Of a stretch of DNA of 64,000 nt, positions 21,489 to 35,667 are shown one piece after another (the first letter of the stretch is position 1; each line of letters opens with the position of its first letter). The DNA comes from Limnohabitans radicicola (GTDB taxonomy: Bacteria; Pseudomonadota; Gammaproteobacteria; Burkholderiales; Burkholderiaceae_C), in assembly GCF_014837235.1 (NCBI RefSeq), contig NZ_JACYFT010000001.1:248001-312000 (forward strand), in the 5' to 3' direction. Both the position numbers and the translations under genes were made by a program. Below the pieces are notes generated by a model that did no database searches, was not told the origin of the DNA, and saw nothing but the letters and a program-made list of their open reading frames with translations.

Positions 21489-21505
21489 CACACCAAACTG
21501 GTGCC
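21489..21505. promoter_or_regulatory. NtrC-like binding site 1 upstream of the NitT ABC-ureD operon
   Basis: CACACCA-AAC-TGGTGCC matches the NtrC consensus TGCACCA-N3-TGGTGCA at 11 of 14 positions. Its centre is 31 bp, about three helical turns, from the second site at 21520-21536 and roughly 114 bp before the predicted sigma-54 start. Confidence 0.6.
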
Positions 21506-21519
21506 CCGCCCGCCAGGGC

Positions 21520-21536
21520 TGCACCAGCTTGGGGTT
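21520..21536. promoter_or_regulatory. NtrC-like binding site 2
   Basis: TGCACCA-GCT-TGGGGTT: a perfect left half of the NtrC consensus and a partial right half. A short hairpin (CCTGACG/CGTCAGG, 21551-21569) lies between this site and the promoter and may be the weak end of the maeB transcript. Confidence 0.5.
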
Positions 21537-21584: not shown

Positions 21585-21600
21585 GGGCACTGAACTTGCT
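21585..21600 (+). promoter_or_regulatory. sigma-54 promoter of the NitT ABC-ureD operon
   Basis: GGGCACTGAACTTGCT contains the invariant GG (21586-21587) and GC (21598-21599) exactly 10 bp apart, within a good match to TGGCACG-N4-TTGCT. It lies 40 bp before the substrate-binding protein gene and downstream of two NtrC-like sites. Confidence 0.7.
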
Positions 21601-21639: not shown

Positions 21640-22674
21640 ATGAACAAGCGTTTTTTCCTCCAGGCCACCGCCGCATTGGCTGCTGCCGCCAGCCTGGGTG
21701 CCGCACAAGCCCAAACCACCCCGATCAAATTCCAGCTCGACTGGCGTTTTGAAGGGCCATCGGCGTTCTTCCTGCTGCCAGCTGCCAAGGGCTACTTCAA
21801 AGACGCCAAGCTCGACGTGAGCGTGGACGCGGGCAACGGCTCGGGTGGTGCGGTCACCCGCGTGGCCTCGGGCACCTACGACCTGGGCTTTGCTGACCTG
21901 GCCGCCCTGATGGAATTCCACGCCAACAACCCCGACGCGCCCAACAAGCCCGTGGCGGTGATGATGGTGTACAACAACACCCCTGCATCGGTGATGGCCC
22001 TCAAGAAATCGGGCATCAAAACCCCGGCCGATCTGGCGGGCAAGAAGCTGGGCGCCCCCGTGTTCGACGCAGGCCGCCGTGCTTTCCCGATCTTCGCCAA
22101 GGCCAACAACGTGGGCAATGTGGCCTGGACCGCGATGGACCCCCCATTGCGCGAAACCATGCTGGTGCGCGGTGATGTGGATGCCATCACTGGCTTCACC
22201 TTCACCTCGCTGCTCAACATCGAAGCGCGTGGCGTCAAGGCCGACGATGTGGTCGTGCTGCAGTACCCCGACTACGGCGTCAAGCTGTATGGCAACGCCA
22301 TCATCGCCTCGCCTAAGATCATCAAAGAAAACCCAGCGGCTGTGAAAGCCTTCCTGGCCGCCTTCACCAAGGGTGCCAAGGACGTGATCGCCGATCCGGC
22401 CAAAGCCATTGAAAGCGTCAAGGCGCGCGACGGCATCATCAACGTGGAACTCGAAACCCGTCGTCTGAAGCTGGCCATCGACACCGTGATCAACAGCCCC
22501 GACGCACGCGCCGAAGGCTTTGGCCAGGTCAAGGGCCCCCGCCTGAGCCTGATGGCTTCGCAAGTGTCTGACGCCTTCAATACCAAAACCCGCGTGAAAG
22601 CCGATGACATCTGGAACGGTTCGTTCCTGCCCTCGGCCAAAGAGCTGGACATCCTGCCCAAAGGCAAAAAGTGA
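21640..22674 (+). CDS. NitT/TauT-type ABC transporter substrate-binding protein
   Basis: A 344-residue periplasmic protein of the SsuA/THI5-like family. It has a signal peptide (MNKRFFLQATAALAAAASLGAAQA, cleavage about residue 24) followed by FQLDWRFEGPSAFFLLPAAKGYF, the hydrophobic pocket segment of the family, and AGKKLGAPVFDAGRRAFPIFAKAN. CAGGAG precedes the ATG. It is the first gene of a set with an ATPase, a permease and ureD. The transported compound is unknown; because the operon has a sigma-54/NtrC-type control region and contains a urease gene, a nitrogen compound is likely (ureide, pyrimidine or amine). Confidence 0.9.
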   Translation: MNKRFFLQATAALAAAASLGAAQAQTTPIKFQLDWRFEGPSAFFLLPAAKGYFKDAKLDVSVDAGNGSGGAVTRVASGTYDLGFADLAALMEFHANNPDAPNKPVAVMMVYNNTPASVMALKKSGIKTPADLAGKKLGAPVFDAGRRAFPIFAKANNVGNVAWTAMDPPLRETMLVRGDVDAITGFTFTSLLNIEARGVKADDVVVLQYPDYGVKLYGNAIIASPKIIKENPAAVKAFLAAFTKGAKDVIADPAKAIESVKARDGIINVELETRRLKLAIDTVINSPDARAEGFGQVKGPRLSLMASQVSDAFNTKTRVKADDIWNGSFLPSAKELDILPKGKK

Positions 22675-22756
22675 GCTTCGGGTCGCAATCTGCGGCCTGA
22701 AACCGAATCGCTCGGGCCTGCGGGTCCGGGCGTGAACCTGCGCAAAGAGTTTCACC

Positions 22757-23575
22757 ATGTCCCAAGACGCATTCGTCGATTTCCAGAATGTCTGGCTGGC
22801 CTACAACGAAGAGTTGCTGGCCCAAAACCACTTTGCGGTGGAAGACATCAACCTGCAGGTCAAGCAAGGCGAGTTCATCGCCATCGTGGGCCCGTCGGGC
22901 TGTGGCAAGTCTACCTTCATGAAGCTGACCACGGGCCTGAAAATGCCCAGCAAGGGCCGCATCCTGATCGACGGTCAGCCCGTCACCGGGCCGCTCAAGA
23001 TCAGTGGTATGGCCTTCCAGGCCCCCTCGCTGCTGCCCTGGCGCACCACGCTCGACAACGTGCTGCTACCGCTGGAAATCGTGGAGCCCTACCGCGCCAG
23101 CTTCAAGCAGAAAAAAGCCGAATACGTCGAACGTGCCCGCAAGCTGCTACAGACTGTGGGCCTGGGGGGGTATGAAGACAAATTCCCCTGGCAACTCTCG
23201 GGCGGCATGCAGCAACGCGCCAGCATCTGCCGCGCCCTGATCCACGAGCCCAAGATGCTGCTGCTCGACGAGCCCTTTGGTGCGCTCGACGCCTTCACCC
23301 GCGAAGAGCTGTGGTGCATCTTGCGCGACCTGTGGACCGCGCAAAAATTCAACGTCATTCTGGTCACGCACGACCTGCGCGAATCGGTCTTTTTGGCCGA
23401 CACGGTGTACGTGATGAGCAAGAGCCCGGGCCGCTTTGTGGTCAAAAAAGAAATCGACCTGCCGCGCCCCCGCGATCTGGAAATCACCTACACGCCCGAA
23501 TTCACCAACATCGTGCACGAGCTGCGTGGGCACATCGGTGCCATGCGCAAGACCGGCGCAGCCATCCACCAATGA
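22757..23575 (+). CDS. NitT/TauT-type ABC transporter ATP-binding protein
   Basis: A 272-residue ATPase related to SsuB/TauB. Walker A GPSGCGKST (about residues 46-54), Q-loop in MAFQAPSLLPWRTT, ABC signature LSGGMQQRASICRAL (about 146-160), Walker B MLLLDEPFGALD, and the switch His in ILVTHDLRESVFLAD. It drives import by the permease encoded next, whose ATG overlaps this stop (ATGA at 23572-23575). Confidence 0.93.
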   Translation: MSQDAFVDFQNVWLAYNEELLAQNHFAVEDINLQVKQGEFIAIVGPSGCGKSTFMKLTTGLKMPSKGRILIDGQPVTGPLKISGMAFQAPSLLPWRTTLDNVLLPLEIVEPYRASFKQKKAEYVERARKLLQTVGLGGYEDKFPWQLSGGMQQRASICRALIHEPKMLLLDEPFGALDAFTREELWCILRDLWTAQKFNVILVTHDLRESVFLADTVYVMSKSPGRFVVKKEIDLPRPRDLEITYTPEFTNIVHELRGHIGAMRKTGAAIHQ

Positions 23576-24351
23576 GTGCCCTCATGAAACAAAAAAACCT
23601 TGAACGCTGGGCCCCCTGGGTGCTGTTGATCGTCAGCATTCTGGTCTGGGAAGGCCTGTGCCGCGCCTTCAACGTGTCGGAATTTGTGTTCCCCAGCCCT
23701 TCGCGCATCGCGCAGCAAACGGTCGAATACCGCGACGTGATCGCCGGTCACGCCTGGCGCACCTTCTGGGTGACCATGGTCGGCTTTGGCATCGCCATCG
23801 TGGTGGGGGTGCTGCTGGGCTTTGTCATTGGCAGCTCGCGCCTGGCCTACGCCGCCGTCTACCCACTCATGACCGCCTTCAACGCCCTGCCCAAGGCGGC
23901 CTTTGTGCCCATCTTGGTCGTGTGGTTCGGCATCGGGGTCGGCCCGGCCATCTTGACGGCCTTCCTCATCAGCTTCTTCCCGATCATGGTGAACATTGCC
24001 ACGGGCCTGGCCACGCTGGAGCCCGAGCTGGAAGACGTGTTGCGCGTGCTGGGCGCCAAGCGCTGGGACGTGCTGGTCAAAGTCGGCCTGCCGCGCTCCA
24101 TGCCCTACTTTTATGGCTCGCTCAAAGTGGCCATCACACTGGCCTTTGTGGGCACCACCGTGTCGGAGATGACCGCAGCCAACGAAGGCATTGGTTATCT
24201 GCTGATCTCGGCCGGCTCGGCCATGCAGATGGGCCTGGCGTTTTCGGGTTTGGTGGTTGTGGGTGCCATGGCCATGGTGATGTACGAACTCTTCAGCACC
24301 ATTGAAAAGCACACCACCGCCTGGGCCCACCGCGGCTCGCAAGGCGAATAA
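23572..24351 (+). CDS. NitT/TauT-type ABC transporter permease
   Basis: A 259-residue inner-membrane permease with about six helices. The EAA loop that contacts the ATPase is visible (VLRVLGAKRWDVLVKVGLPRSMPYFYGSLKVA). The start ATG 23572 overlaps the ATPase stop; the frame is open further upstream but that region lies within the ATPase gene. ureD follows after 9 bp, so transporter and urease assembly factor share one transcript. Confidence 0.92.
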   Translation: MSALMKQKNLERWAPWVLLIVSILVWEGLCRAFNVSEFVFPSPSRIAQQTVEYRDVIAGHAWRTFWVTMVGFGIAIVVGVLLGFVIGSSRLAYAAVYPLMTAFNALPKAAFVPILVVWFGIGVGPAILTAFLISFFPIMVNIATGLATLEPELEDVLRVLGAKRWDVLVKVGLPRSMPYFYGSLKVAITLAFVGTTVSEMTAANEGIGYLLISAGSAMQMGLAFSGLVVVGAMAMVMYELFSTIEKHTTAWAHRGSQGE

Positions 24352-24360
24352 GCCCCGCCA

Positions 24361-25191
24361 ATGACTTGGCACGCCAGCCTGCGACTCGACTACACGCTGG
24401 AGTCTGAACGCAGCGTCGCCCGCTACCAGCACCAAGGGCCGCTGCGCATCCTGCAAAGCCTCTACCCCGAAGGCGATGCGGTCTGCCACAACGTGCTGGT
24501 GCACCCGCCCGGCGGCCTGGTGGGCGGCGACACGCTGGACATGCGGATCACGGTGGGCCAAGGCGCACACGGCCTGGTGACCACACCTGGCGCCACACGG
24601 TTTTACCGCTCCACCACCGGTTTGGCCAAACAGCAAGTCCATGCCCAAGTGGCGGAAGGTGCACGGCTCGAATGGCTGCCGCTGGAGGCCATTGCCTACA
24701 ACGCCTGCGATGCGCTCAACCGTGCCACGTTTGAACTCGCACCCGGTGCAGAAATGATGACCTGGGACATCACAGCGCTGGGCCTCCCCGCCGCCGACTT
24801 GCCCTTTGAGCAAGGCACCTTCCGCCAACACATGGAGATCCCTGGCGTTTGGCTGGAGCGCGGCAGCATCCACGCCAGCGATGCACGGTTGATGAACAGC
24901 CCTTTAGGATTAGCAGGTCAGCGCTGCATGGCCACACTGGCGTTTGCCGCAGGCAGCGCCATCGCCGCCGAGCGCAGCGAACGGGCATTGGCCTGTGCCC
25001 GCGAACTGCTCGATGCCTCCCCATTGCGCCTGACGGCAGGCGCCACATCGCCGCACCCGCAGGTCATCGTACTGCGCGTGCTGGCCCCTGTGACCGAACC
25101 CGCGCTGCAACTGCTGCGCCTGGTCTGGGCTGCGTGGCGGCAGGAGATGTGGGGGCTGCTGGGGACAGTGCCTCGGTTGTGGAACCTGTAG
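24361..25191 (+). CDS. ureD: urease accessory protein UreD
   Basis: Scaffold that, with UreF and UreG, delivers nickel to the urease active site. The 276-residue protein has the family stretches GPLRILQSLYPEGDAVCHNVLVHPPGG(LVGGD), TTPGATRFYRS and RLEWLPLEAIAYN. It is separated from the other urease genes by the oppositely oriented urt operon and is attached to the NitT ABC operon instead. The stop codon TAG (25189-25191) lies within a REP-like repeat that starts at 25188, so the repeat helped shape the C-terminus. Confidence 0.94.
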   Translation: MTWHASLRLDYTLESERSVARYQHQGPLRILQSLYPEGDAVCHNVLVHPPGGLVGGDTLDMRITVGQGAHGLVTTPGATRFYRSTTGLAKQQVHAQVAEGARLEWLPLEAIAYNACDALNRATFELAPGAEMMTWDITALGLPAADLPFEQGTFRQHMEIPGVWLERGSIHASDARLMNSPLGLAGQRCMATLAFAAGSAIAAERSERALACARELLDASPLRLTAGATSPHPQVIVLRVLAPVTEPALQLLRLVWAAWRQEMWGLLGTVPRLWNL

Positions 25192-25269: not shown

Positions 25270-25974
25270 TCAAATCGCCACCAACTGCTGAATGTTCTTC
25301 ACCTTCATCTCACTCCCCGGTCCGCTGGCGATCACTTCGCCGCGCTCCATCACCAAGTACTGATCGGCCAACTCTTCGGCAAAGTCGTAGTACTGCTCGC
25401 ACAGCAAAACGCCCATGCGCTGGCCTTGCAGGCCAACGTCGGCCAGTTGGCGGATGACGCGGCCAATGTCCTTGATGATGCTGGGCTGGATGCCTTCGGT
25501 CGGTTCGTCCAATATCAATAGGCGCGGCTTGGCGGCCAGTGCGCGGGCAATGGCCAGCTGCTGCTGTTGGCCGCCAGACAAGTCACCGCCACGGCGGTGC
25601 AGCATTTGTTTGAGCACCGGGAAAAGCTCAAACAACTCGGGAGGGATCGGCGTGCCACCGGGCTGCGTGGCCAGGCCCATGCGCAGGTTGTCTTCGACAG
25701 TGAGGCGGGCAAAGATTTCGCGGCCCTGGGGCACATAGCCAATGCCAGCCGCTGCGCGTTCGTAGGGTTTGGCTTTGGTGATGTCCTGACCAGCGAGCGT
25801 GACGCTGCCGCTTTGGATGGGCACCAGACCCATCAGGCTTTTGAGCAGCGTGGTCTTGCCCACGCCGTTGCGGCCCAGCAGCACCGTCACGCGGCCCTGG
25901 GCGGCGCTCAGGCTCACGTCGCGCAGGATGTGCGAACCGCCGTAGTACTGGTGAATATTTTTGACTTCTAGCAT
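25270..25974 (-). CDS. urtE: urea ABC transporter ATP-binding protein UrtE
   Basis: LivF-like ATPase of the urea importer, 234 residues. Walker A LLGRNGVGKTT (about 32-42), signature LSGGQQQQLAIARAL, Walker B LLILDEPTEGIQPSI; the EPTEGIQPSII stretch is typical of UrtE. Last gene of urtABCDE. A REP-like palindrome (25994-26018) lies in the 51-bp gap after urtD and may tune relative expression. Confidence 0.95.
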   Translation of the reverse strand: MLEVKNIHQYYGGSHILRDVSLSAAQGRVTVLLGRNGVGKTTLLKSLMGLVPIQSGSVTLAGQDITKAKPYERAAAGIGYVPQGREIFARLTVEDNLRMGLATQPGGTPIPPELFELFPVLKQMLHRRGGDLSGGQQQQLAIARALAAKPRLLILDEPTEGIQPSIIKDIGRVIRQLADVGLQGQRMGVLLCEQYYDFAEELADQYLVMERGEVIASGPGSEMKVKNIQQLVAI

Positions 25975-29684: not shown

Positions 29685-30959
29685 TTACTTCTTGACAGGT
29701 TCGTCAGGCTTGGAAGCATTGCCTTCGATGAAAGGGCTCCATGGCTTGGCCTTGACGGGGCCAGGGGTCTTCCAGACCACGTTGAACTGGCCATCGGCCT
29801 TGATCTCGCCGATGAACACCGACTTGTGGAGGTGGTGGTTCTTTTCGTCCATCTTGCTGGTGATGCCAGAAGGTGCCTTGAAGGTCTGACCCGCCATGGC
29901 CTTGATCACGGCATCCACATCGGTGGTCTTGGCTTTCTCAACCGCTTGCTTCCACATGTTGATGCCGATGTAGGTGGCTTCCATCGGATCGTTGGCCAGC
30001 GGCTTGTCTTTGTGACCCGCGATGCCTTTGGCCTTGGCGTAAGCAGACCACTTCTTGATGAAGTCGTCGTTGGCAGGGTTCTTGATGCTCATGAAATAGT
30101 TCCATGCCGCCAAGTGGCCGACCAAAGGCTTGGTGTCCACGCCACGCAACTCTTCCTCACCCACCGAGAAGGCGACCACGGGCACGTCCTTGGCCTTCAG
30201 ACCGGCGTTGCCCAGTTCCTTGTAGAACGGCACGTTGGAGTCGCCGTTGATGGTGGAGACCACTGCGGTCTTGCCACCGGCACTGAACTTTTTGATGTCA
30301 GCGACGATCGTCTGGTAGTCAGAGTGACCAAACGGGGTGTACTTCTCATCGATGTCGCTGTCTTTCACGCCTTTGCTCTTGAGGTAGGCGCGCAGAATTT
30401 TGTTGGTGGTGCGGGGGTACACATAGTCGGTGCCCAGCAGCACCCAGCGCTTGGCCGAGCCACCGTCTTTGCTCATCAGGTAGTCCACTGCAGGAATGGC
30501 TTGCTGGTTGGGGGCAGCGCCTGTGTAGAAAACGTTTTTGGACAGCTCTTCACCTTCGTACTGCACGGGGTAGAACAGCAGGCCGTTCATTTCTTCCACA
30601 ACAGGCAACACCGATTTGCGAGACACCGAAGTCCAGCAACCGAAGATGACCGAAACTTTGTCCTGGCCCAACAGCTGCTTGGTTTTTTCAGCGAACAGAG
30701 GCCAGTTGGAGGCAGGGTCGACCACAACAGGTTCGAGCTTCTTGCCCAGAACGCCGCCCTTGGCGTTGATTTCGTCAATCGCCATCAGCACGGTGTCTTT
30801 CAACACAGTTTCAGAGATGGCCATGGTGCCAGACAGGCTGTGCAACACACCGACCTTGATGGTATCGGCTGCTTGCGCTTGCAAAGAGAAAGTCAATGTG
30901 CCAGCAGCCAAGGCAGATGCCAGGGCCAAAGCTTTGAGGTTGCCGCGACGGTTCATCAT
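29685..30959 (-). CDS. urtA: urea ABC transporter substrate-binding protein UrtA
   Basis: Periplasmic urea-binding protein of the Leu/Ile/Val-BP family, 424 residues. Signal peptide MMNRRGNLKALALASALAAG to about residue 30 (cleavage after QAQA). Then IKVGVLHSLSGTMAISE, DPASNWPLFAEKTKQLL and GCWTSVSRKSVLPVVEEMNGLLFYPVQYEGEE, all typical of UrtA. The frame is open to 31088, but ATG 30959 has GGAG about 10 bp before it and yields the signal peptide. A sigma-54 promoter lies about 70 bp upstream, so import is induced under nitrogen limitation (inference). Confidence 0.95.
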   Translation of the reverse strand: MMNRRGNLKALALASALAAGTLTFSLQAQAADTIKVGVLHSLSGTMAISETVLKDTVLMAIDEINAKGGVLGKKLEPVVVDPASNWPLFAEKTKQLLGQDKVSVIFGCWTSVSRKSVLPVVEEMNGLLFYPVQYEGEELSKNVFYTGAAPNQQAIPAVDYLMSKDGGSAKRWVLLGTDYVYPRTTNKILRAYLKSKGVKDSDIDEKYTPFGHSDYQTIVADIKKFSAGGKTAVVSTINGDSNVPFYKELGNAGLKAKDVPVVAFSVGEEELRGVDTKPLVGHLAAWNYFMSIKNPANDDFIKKWSAYAKAKGIAGHKDKPLANDPMEATYIGINMWKQAVEKAKTTDVDAVIKAMAGQTFKAPSGITSKMDEKNHHLHKSVFIGEIKADGQFNVVWKTPGPVKAKPWSPFIEGNASKPDEPVKK

Positions 30960-31027
30960 GAGATCACTCCAGTAGGGAAAAGTTTTTTGAACACTTGAGG
31001 GCAAGATTGCCAACCCGCAGAGGTATT

Positions 31028-31043
31028 CGCAAACACCGTGCCA
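31028..31043 (-). promoter_or_regulatory. sigma-54 promoter of urtABCDE
   Basis: On the minus strand TGGCACG-GTGT-TTGCG is a near-perfect -24/-12 promoter, with invariant GG (31042-31041) and GC (31030-31029) 10 bp apart. Transcription would start near 31017, about 58 nt before urtA. Confidence 0.75.
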
Positions 31044-31051
31044 GCTTTTTG

Positions 31052-31070
31052 CTGGTGTACAACGCACCAG
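31052..31070. promoter_or_regulatory. palindrome between the divergent sigma-54 promoters
   Basis: CTGGTG-N7-CACCAG, a 19-bp inverted repeat about 10 bp upstream of the urtA -24 element and about 45 bp upstream of the ureA one. The two arms resemble NtrC half-sites (TGGTGTA and CGCACCA) but point the opposite way to a standard NtrC site. It is a candidate activator site for one or both promoters. Confidence 0.35.
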
Positions 31071-31115
31071 AAAACGGCATACTTGCAATGGACTTCTCCA
31101 TGGCGCCTATAAAGA

Positions 31116-31131
31116 GGGCACGCAATTTGCA
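31116..31131 (+). promoter_or_regulatory. sigma-54 promoter of the ureA operon
   Basis: GGGCACG-CAAT-TTGCA fits the -24/-12 consensus with only the first base off. GG (31117-31118) and GC (31129-31130) are 10 bp apart. The start point would be near 31142, leaving a leader of about 32 nt before ureA. Confidence 0.75.
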
Positions 31132-31173
31132 TGGAATGACACAACGCACGAATTCGGAAAGACGCGCACCAAG

Positions 31174-31476
31174 ATGGAACTCACTCCCCGCGAAAAAGAC
31201 AAGCTGCTGATCTTCACCGCCGCACTGTTGGCCGAGCGCCGCAAGGCCCGTGGCCTCAAGCTCAACTACCCGGAAGCGGTGGCATTGATCAGCGCCGCCG
31301 TCATGGAAGGCGCGCGCGACGGCAAGACCGTGGCGCAGCTCATGAGCGAAGGCCGCACCGTGTTGACGCGCGCGGATGTGATGGACGGCATCGCGGAAAT
31401 GATTCCGGACATCCAGGTCGAAGCCACTTTCCCGGACGGCACCAAATTGGTGACCGTGCACCAACCCATCGTCTGA
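31174..31476 (+). CDS. ureA: urease gamma subunit
   Basis: The 100-residue smallest structural subunit of urease. Family stretches: [14 protein letters not shown] at the start, [29 protein letters not shown], and the conserved end [14 protein letters not shown]. First gene of ureA-(small protein)-ureBCEFG behind a sigma-54 promoter. No overlap with neighbours: 20 bp to the small His-rich gene. Confidence 0.97.
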
Positions 31477-31496
31477 AAACACCAAGGAGCACACCC

Positions 31497-31670
31497 ATGA
31501 ATACCAAATACCTCGCCACTTTGCTTGTTGGTGCATTCACCCAAATGGGGGCACTCGCCCACGACGGCCACGGCATGGCCGGAGCCCACTGGCACGCCAC
31601 GGACGCCGTCGGTTGGGTGGTCGCCATCGCACTGGCGGTGGCGGGCTGGTACATCGGCACGCGCAAGTGA
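31497..31670 (+). CDS. small His-rich exported or membrane protein within the urease operon
   Basis: A 57-residue protein between ureA and ureB, preceded by a perfect AAGGAG (31484-31489) 7 bp before the ATG. The N-terminus [21 protein letters not shown] looks like a signal peptide or first helix; the middle [15 protein letters not shown] has five His and two Asp; the end [19 protein letters not shown] is a membrane helix with a basic tail. The ureB ribosome site (GAGGT) overlaps its stop. The His cluster, probably on the periplasmic face, suggests nickel binding or transfer, but this is inference. I do not recognise a named family. Base composition matches the neighbours. Confidence 0.75.
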
Positions 31671-35011: not shown

Positions 35012-35667
35012 GCTCTGCACTGCACCACATCCCGAATCGCACCAAAAAACTACCGCCCCTGCGCGTGGGCATTGGCGGGCCTGTGGGCTCCGGCAAAACC
35101 ACGCTGCTCGAGATGCTCTGCAAAAACATGCGCGAGCGTTGGGACCTCATCGCCATCACCAACGACATTTACACCAAGGAAGACCAGCGCTTGCTCACCG
35201 TGAGTGGCGCGCTGCCCGCCGAGCGCATCATGGGCGTGGAAACGGGCGGCTGCCCGCACACGGCCATCCGCGAAGACGCGTCCATCAACCTCGAAGCGAT
35301 CGACCGCATGCTGGAGAAGTTCCCGAACGCCGACGTGGTCTTCATCGAAAGCGGCGGCGACAACCTGGCCGCCACCTTCAGCCCCGAACTGTCTGACCTC
35401 ACGATCTATGTGATCGATGTGGCCGCAGGCGAAAAAATCCCCCGCAAGGGCGGCCCCGGCATCACCAAGAGCGACCTGTTCGTCATCAACAAGACCGACC
35501 TGGCGCCGCACGTGGGCGCTGACCTGGAAGTGATGCGCGCCGACACCGACCGCATGCGCCCCAACCGCGAGACACGCCCCTGGGTGATGACCAACCTCAA
35601 AACGCTGGATGGCCTGGCCGAAGTGGTCACCTTCATCGAAAAGCGGGGCATGCTCCACAGCGCCTGA
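35008..35667 (+). CDS. ureG: urease accessory GTPase UreG
   Basis: SIMIBI-class GTPase that powers nickel insertion into urease. 219 residues. P-loop [15 protein letters not shown] (about 22-36), [15 protein letters not shown], the metal-binding Cys-Pro-His motif in [15 protein letters not shown], and the specificity motif NKTDL. Last gene of the urease operon; tRNA-Ser follows about 40 bp later. Confidence 0.97.

Follow-up and report, generated by a model that had tools for sequence, protein, structure and literature searches.

What signal governs urea use in Limnohabitans radicicola, where the genes for urea import and those for urea hydrolysis lead away from one another out of a common spacer? 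The window, the whole stretch of 64,000 nucleotides that was analyzed, includes urtA, followed by urtB to urtE, which run on to position 25270 and have Pfam ABC matches. On the other side of a 214-base spacer lies ureA, with ureB, ureC, ureE, ureF, and ureG downstream to about position 35667 (Table 1). The ureB product passes its urease model, and ureC, ureE, ureF, and ureG were read from their translations and from cross-matching among relatives. Judging from its sequence and that of its relatives, this locus is very probably a conserved divergent sigma-54 urea unit under NtrC.

Table 1. Coordinates of genes, promoter elements, and candidate regulatory sites, in order along the window
Feature	Position	Strand	Sequence	Remarks
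NtrC-type box	21490..21504	plus	ACACCAAACTGGTGC	1 mismatch; -113 from estimated start of third promoter
NtrC-type half-box	21521..21535	plus	GCACCAGCTTGGGGT	2 mismatches; -82 from estimated start of third promoter
Third sigma-54-type element	21585..21600	plus	GGGCACTGAACTTGCT	Score 14; 41 bases before NMT1-type ABC substrate-binding gene
Putative operon: NMT1-type ABC transporter (binding protein, ATPase, permease) and ureD	21640..25191	plus
urtA, urea ABC transporter substrate-binding protein	29688..30959	minus		TIGR03407, 600.6 bits (cut-off 492.75); first base of start codon 30959
Sigma-54 -24/-12 element of urtA	31028..31043	minus	TGGCACGGTGTTTGCG	TGGCACG-GTGT-TTGCG; estimated start about 31018
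CTGGTG-N7-CACCAG palindrome	31052..31070		CTGGTGTACAACGCACCAG	Exact; complete in 1/51 regions
GCACCAG half-site (right arm of palindrome)	31064..31070	plus		-77 from estimated ureA start
Sigma-54 -24/-12 element of ureA	31116..31131	plus	GGGCACGCAATTTGCA	GGGCACG-CAAT-TTGCA; estimated start about 31141
Degenerate half-site	31145..31152	plus	CGCACGAA	About +5 of ureA; 20 bases before start-codon box
NtrC-type box over ureA start codon	31166..31180	plus	GCACCAAGATGGAAC	2 mismatches
ureA, urease gamma subunit	31174..31476	plus		Passes urease model; ATG at 31174

The predicted divergent urtA and ureA promoters

Sigma-54 promoters carry a GG and a GC dinucleotide separated by 10 bases, set within the consensus TGGCACGN4TTGCW. 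Dinucleotides so spaced are found in two elements of the urtA-ureA spacer, one facing urtA and the other ureA (each scoring 15 of 16 by the sigma-54 score), as well as in the 21585 site discussed below (14). An earlier note on this DNA had proposed such back-to-back -24/-12 elements, and both lie exactly at the ends given there. They are the only two copies of the exact pattern GGCACGN4TTGC (0 mismatches) in the 64 kb window; genome-wide, this pattern occurs 16 times in 3,341,854 bases, compared to five for a backward-read control pattern. Random placement of 16 sites would yield an opposing exact pair within 120 bp about 0.002 times per genome. When the region was mononucleotide-shuffled 2000 times, two shuffles reached a score of at least 15 of 16 on one strand; a score of 13 was reached in about 6 percent (118/2000).

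By reading, five of the 16 exact sites lie upstream of genes, and the remainder are inside gene frames. The five precede a flgB-like gene (its identity by eye, without an NCBIfam match), urtA, ureA, a gene for cytochrome c-550 PedF (L029, C1:981693), and one for a PQQ-dependent dehydrogenase (L030, C1:995463). The site before the PedF gene adjoins the gene for L003, a sigma-54 activator whose N-terminal part is long. Another exact site, L038, was rejected as a gene-upstream promoter because, by eye, it sits in the frame of an upstream permease.

To compare relatives, we drew on genomes in which UrtA was found (104 of 150 from the family, 44 of 60 from the genus) and on a further 80 named loci among the matches listed, of 586 relatives found. 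This gave 138 loci, the L. radicicola locus included, of which 137 could be scored (L124 had too little upstream sequence and was left out). In 55 loci ureA is divergent from and adjacent to urtA; these correspond to 51 unique regions after removal of four duplicates, and, being mostly from one genus, they are not independent. A urtA site scoring at least 14 of 16 occurs within 130 bases in all 55, versus 5 of the 82 loci of other layout, where three more score 13. Across the unique regions the urtA sites score 14–16, 27 of them the full 16, and are 47–80 bases away from the start of urtA. At ureA the score is 14–15 in 41 regions, 13 in nine, and 12 in one; 39 of the 51 ureA sites are 40–50 bases before the ATG, and that of L042 is 199 bases away. 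The recurrence of the urtA site in every divergent locus, and of a ureA site scoring 14–15 in 41 of the 51 regions, supports the earlier proposal that urtA and ureA each have a sigma-54 promoter, the two divergent. Of 21 ureA genes scanned that have no adjacent urtA, 18 show a site scoring at least 13 within 400 bases; in 15 of the 18 the distance is no more than 100 bases.

On a urtA gene tree with 87 members (L124 and L139 were left out of 89 picked rows), we also asked how far the urtA site follows gene layout. The site changes 10 times on this tree. Among eight independent pairs that differ in layout, it differs in 3.8 on average, all in the expected direction, which is not significant (sign test, median p 0.125). 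The idea that the urtA sigma-54 site strictly follows the divergent layout was rejected, their link not being shown beyond descent.

NtrC-type boxes and the candidate activator

The L. radicicola genome contains one RpoN match (7.4e-65) and five full sigma-54 activators, one of which is NtrC (TIGR01818, 673.6 bits, above the equivalog cut-off of 558.6); two further weak activator matches appear Clp ATPase-like by eye. A known NtrC enhancer system is that of glnA in Escherichia coli, glnAp2. Before the glnA gene of this genome (TIGR00653, 633.9 bits, cut-off 429.15), a sigma-54-type element scoring 14 lies at a distance of about 47 bases from the gene start, and at -131 there is a perfect match to GCACC-N5-GGTGC, which we take to be the NtrC consensus. 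The urtA/ureA pair is similar in combining sigma-54-type promoters with a candidate box of this type, but its best box is weaker (two mismatches) and overlaps a start codon.

We infer from these elements that NtrC and sigma-54 probably induce urea import, urease, and UreD jointly at nitrogen limitation, by way of looping enhancers. Sigma-54 RNA polymerase would occupy the two back-to-back promoters, with urtABCDE to be transcribed one way and ureABCEFG the other. At nitrogen limitation, phosphorylated NtrC would bind GCACC-N5-GGTGC boxes, in this case the one over the start codon of ureA, together with half-sites near -77 or +9 of that gene, and would loop to both polymerases, upon which both transcripts would begin. 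The putative third promoter at 21585, with NtrC-type boxes of its own, would add ureD, and import, hydrolysis, and enzyme maturation would therefore rise together. If this model is correct, the locus would be a compact case of one nitrogen signal driving all three functions from three promoters.

The start-codon box (GCACCAAGATGG) includes a 12-mer, GCACCAANATGG, formed by the GCACCA copy at +28. This 12-mer covers the ureA start codon in 28 of the 51 regions; the other 23 carry different sequence before the ATG. It occurs five times in the genome, compared to two for a control pattern: at the glnA enhancer, at the ureA start, and three times inside long open frames, which makes the glnA enhancer the only other copy outside such a frame. 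Among regions with the start-codon box, 24 have a spacer of less than 260 bases, and 23 of these contain a second half-site near -77 or between 0 and +15 (two contain both); GCACCA itself occurs between 0 and +15 in 14 of the 24.

With promoters masked, GCACC-N5-GGTGC with at most one mismatch is found in 10 of the 51 regions versus 0.2 expected, the top of 32 order-and-spacing combinations; GGTGC-N15-GCACC (7/51 versus 0.5) and GGTGC-N3-GCACC (6/51 versus 0.3) come next. With up to two mismatches the count is 24/51 versus 4.1 expected, and many other spacings are likewise raised two- to four-fold. Because other half-site arrangements also exceed expectation, the spacing argument is not exclusive. 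The 7-mer GCACCAA is present in 48 of the 51 divergent regions versus 3.8 expected; alone it is not enriched in the window (18 versus 19.5 expected). NtrC boxes with at most one mismatch are common genome-wide (669), and between urtA and the ureA ATG the window contains none with two mismatches or fewer.

An NtrC-like site with one mismatch, GCACCAAATTGGTGA, also occurs inside ureA (31439-31453). A site with at most one mismatch is found in 33 of 50 divergent loci, including that of L. radicicola, and the encoded protein sequence may account for its recurrence.

The start-codon box could have a more particular function. Measured by hand, it lies at about -155 relative to the estimated start of urtA and at about +32 relative to that of ureA, and it is conceivable, if doubtful, that this single box is an enhancer shared by both promoters that sets the ratio of import to hydrolysis, with control of urtA having passed in some relatives to a dedicated two-component system upstream of urtA (a kinase and a LuxR-type regulator). 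Against the box count its two mismatches, its position downstream of the ureA start, and its presence in only 28 of the 51 regions.

The sigma-54 elements may also be real while GCACCAA beside the ureA start is no NtrC box, serving instead as a translation signal or as the target of an unknown protein; we regard this as unlikely. GCACCAA does occupy the ribosome-binding position in the 28 regions, and the window lacks a clear purine-rich Shine-Dalgarno sequence before ureA. Moreover, GCACCA, which clusters near positions -80, +9, and +28 relative to the estimated start of ureA, is nearly always in the sense of ureA (93 versus 7 in the 51 divergent regions), a strand bias not accounted for by symmetric NtrC sites. 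However, this reading fits poorly with the 23 regions that differ in sequence before the ATG, with the glnA enhancer as the only other site of the 12-mer outside long open frames, and with the occurrence of GCACCA at about -77 of ureA and of GCACCAAAA upstream of glnA, away from a start codon.

It is improbable that an enhancer-binding protein other than NtrC drives one or both promoters, with both sigma-54-dependent, through the CTGGTG-N7-CACCAG palindrome. There are four other full sigma-54 activators in the genome, none above a listed equivalog cut-off, and the palindrome does lie between the promoters in exact form, as the earlier note had described, centered about 43 bp away from the estimated start of urtA and lying at about -80 from that of ureA. 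The window holds no other copy at 0 mismatches, and two exact copies occur genome-wide. L152, the nearest relative, differs in the two outer bases of the left arm and retains the inner GGTG-N7-CACC; the right-arm GCACCA recurs in part of the genus. However, the complete palindrome is found in one of the 51 regions and its inner part in two, the remaining 49 lacking it; it is also not enriched in the genome, with 27 copies at up to one mismatch versus 36 for a control pattern. None of the other four activators is encoded within the window. Usual enhancers sit farther out than about -43, its distance from the estimated urtA start, and NtrC-type boxes with the NtrC spacing occur above expectation. 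We therefore judge the palindrome unlikely to be an activator site. Nor does it resemble an NtrC site: its half-sites are reversed in order relative to the NtrC consensus, and its own form, GGTGC-N5-GCACC, occurs in 2 of 51 regions versus 0.2 expected (promoters masked). The start-codon box appears to be the better NtrC-type candidate.

Least plausible is a chance origin of the sigma-54-like matches, with the operons run from sigma-70-type promoters, given the rarity expected of an exact opposing pair and the preservation of the urtA site throughout the 55 divergent loci; a scan of 30700-31500 also found no sigma-70-type match, which carries little weight because only 0.2 are expected by chance.

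The putative third promoter and ureD

The gene for UreD, whose product passes the Pfam UreD model, is located nine bases behind NMT1-type ABC transporter genes. It is thus apart from the other ure genes and convergent with urtE, with its own sigma-54-type promoter.

A third sigma-54 unit had been proposed at 21585. By score this site is not unusual, since 10 other places in the window also reach 14. Its position and its recurrence in relatives support it as a candidate promoter: a similar site is found 38–45 bases before the same gene in four of six relatives with enough upstream sequence (L070, scoring 15; L089, 13; L120, 13; and L141, 14). The exceptions are L078, with a score of 12 at 50 bases, and L108, with a site only at 111 bases; rows L077, L082, L100, L105, L106, and L144 were left out of this comparison. 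The NtrC-type boxes lie at -113/-82 in the window and at -113/-81 in L070. A copy of the palindrome with one mismatch at 21498-21516, considered as a site shared with this promoter, was dropped because it overlaps the better NtrC-type box at 21490-21504.

Precedents and alternative control in relatives

Passages from several studies describe control of this kind. For Burkholderia cenocepacia, an ntrC mutant is reported to show no growth on urea, with log2 changes of -4.4 for ureA, -5.2 for ureC, -4.2 for urtD, and -5.9 for urtB (passages of PMC5491218). The urea transporter and urease genes of strain H111 are thus NtrC-dependent, as predicted here, and the large majority of NtrC-regulated genes in H111 are also under sigma-54 (same passages). 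This experimental precedent supports the suggestion, made earlier for the L. radicicola locus, that import and hydrolysis of urea would be switched together. The layout appears to differ: in H111 the locus tags I35_0775 (urea-binding protein) to I35_0765 (ureF), given in those passages without strands, suggest one gene run, whereas here two putative operons diverge from two promoters, with ureD under a third.

Herbaspirillum seropedicae is similar in having a sigma-54 promoter before urtA and probable Ntr control, but its urtABCDE genes are upstream of ure, and the passages of the report name the urtA promoter only and do not describe a divergent pair (PMC3093359). Urease genes of Pseudomonas stutzeri require NtrC, according to a passage of PMC8443478. 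Among predicted NtrC regulons of Proteobacteria, urease and urea transporters are targets in some groups; the relevant passage names Alteromonadales, Oceanospirillales, Rhizobiales, and Rhodobacterales and does not name betaproteobacteria (PMC5343134). A 2025 survey of sigma-54 regulons, in the part available, places urease genes among targets mainly in alpha- and beta-Proteobacteria (PMC12316311). The titles and abstract openings among the matches listed from the open-licence literature describe neither a divergent urtA/ureA pair nor urea control in Limnohabitans. The type of control is already known; it appears to take a variant form here, with a divergent layout and a candidate box over the start codon of ureA.

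Most relatives of other layout lack the urtA sigma-54 site. Many of these loci instead suggest a different control: a response regulator gene upstream of urtA on the same strand is found in 32 of the 82 (within 1 kb in 12), and in none of these 32 does urtA have a site scoring at least 13. No comparable regulator was found upstream of urtA in the 55 divergent loci, many loci having short flanks. This comparison suggests two controls of the same transporter among relatives, the global nitrogen regulator or a dedicated two-component system. If this is correct, the two-way control of urtA would be a natural experiment in regulatory replacement.

Acidovorax soli (L112:4896-9769) and Hydrogenophaga (L140:5238-9847) each encode a histidine kinase and then a REC-LuxR response regulator between ureA and urtA, both colinear with urtA, which has no sigma-54 site in either locus. 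By eye, the N-terminal half of the kinase is membrane-spanning and resembles an NCS1 permease; the Pfam matches in the Acidovorax soli pair are HisKA, HATPase, and REC only.
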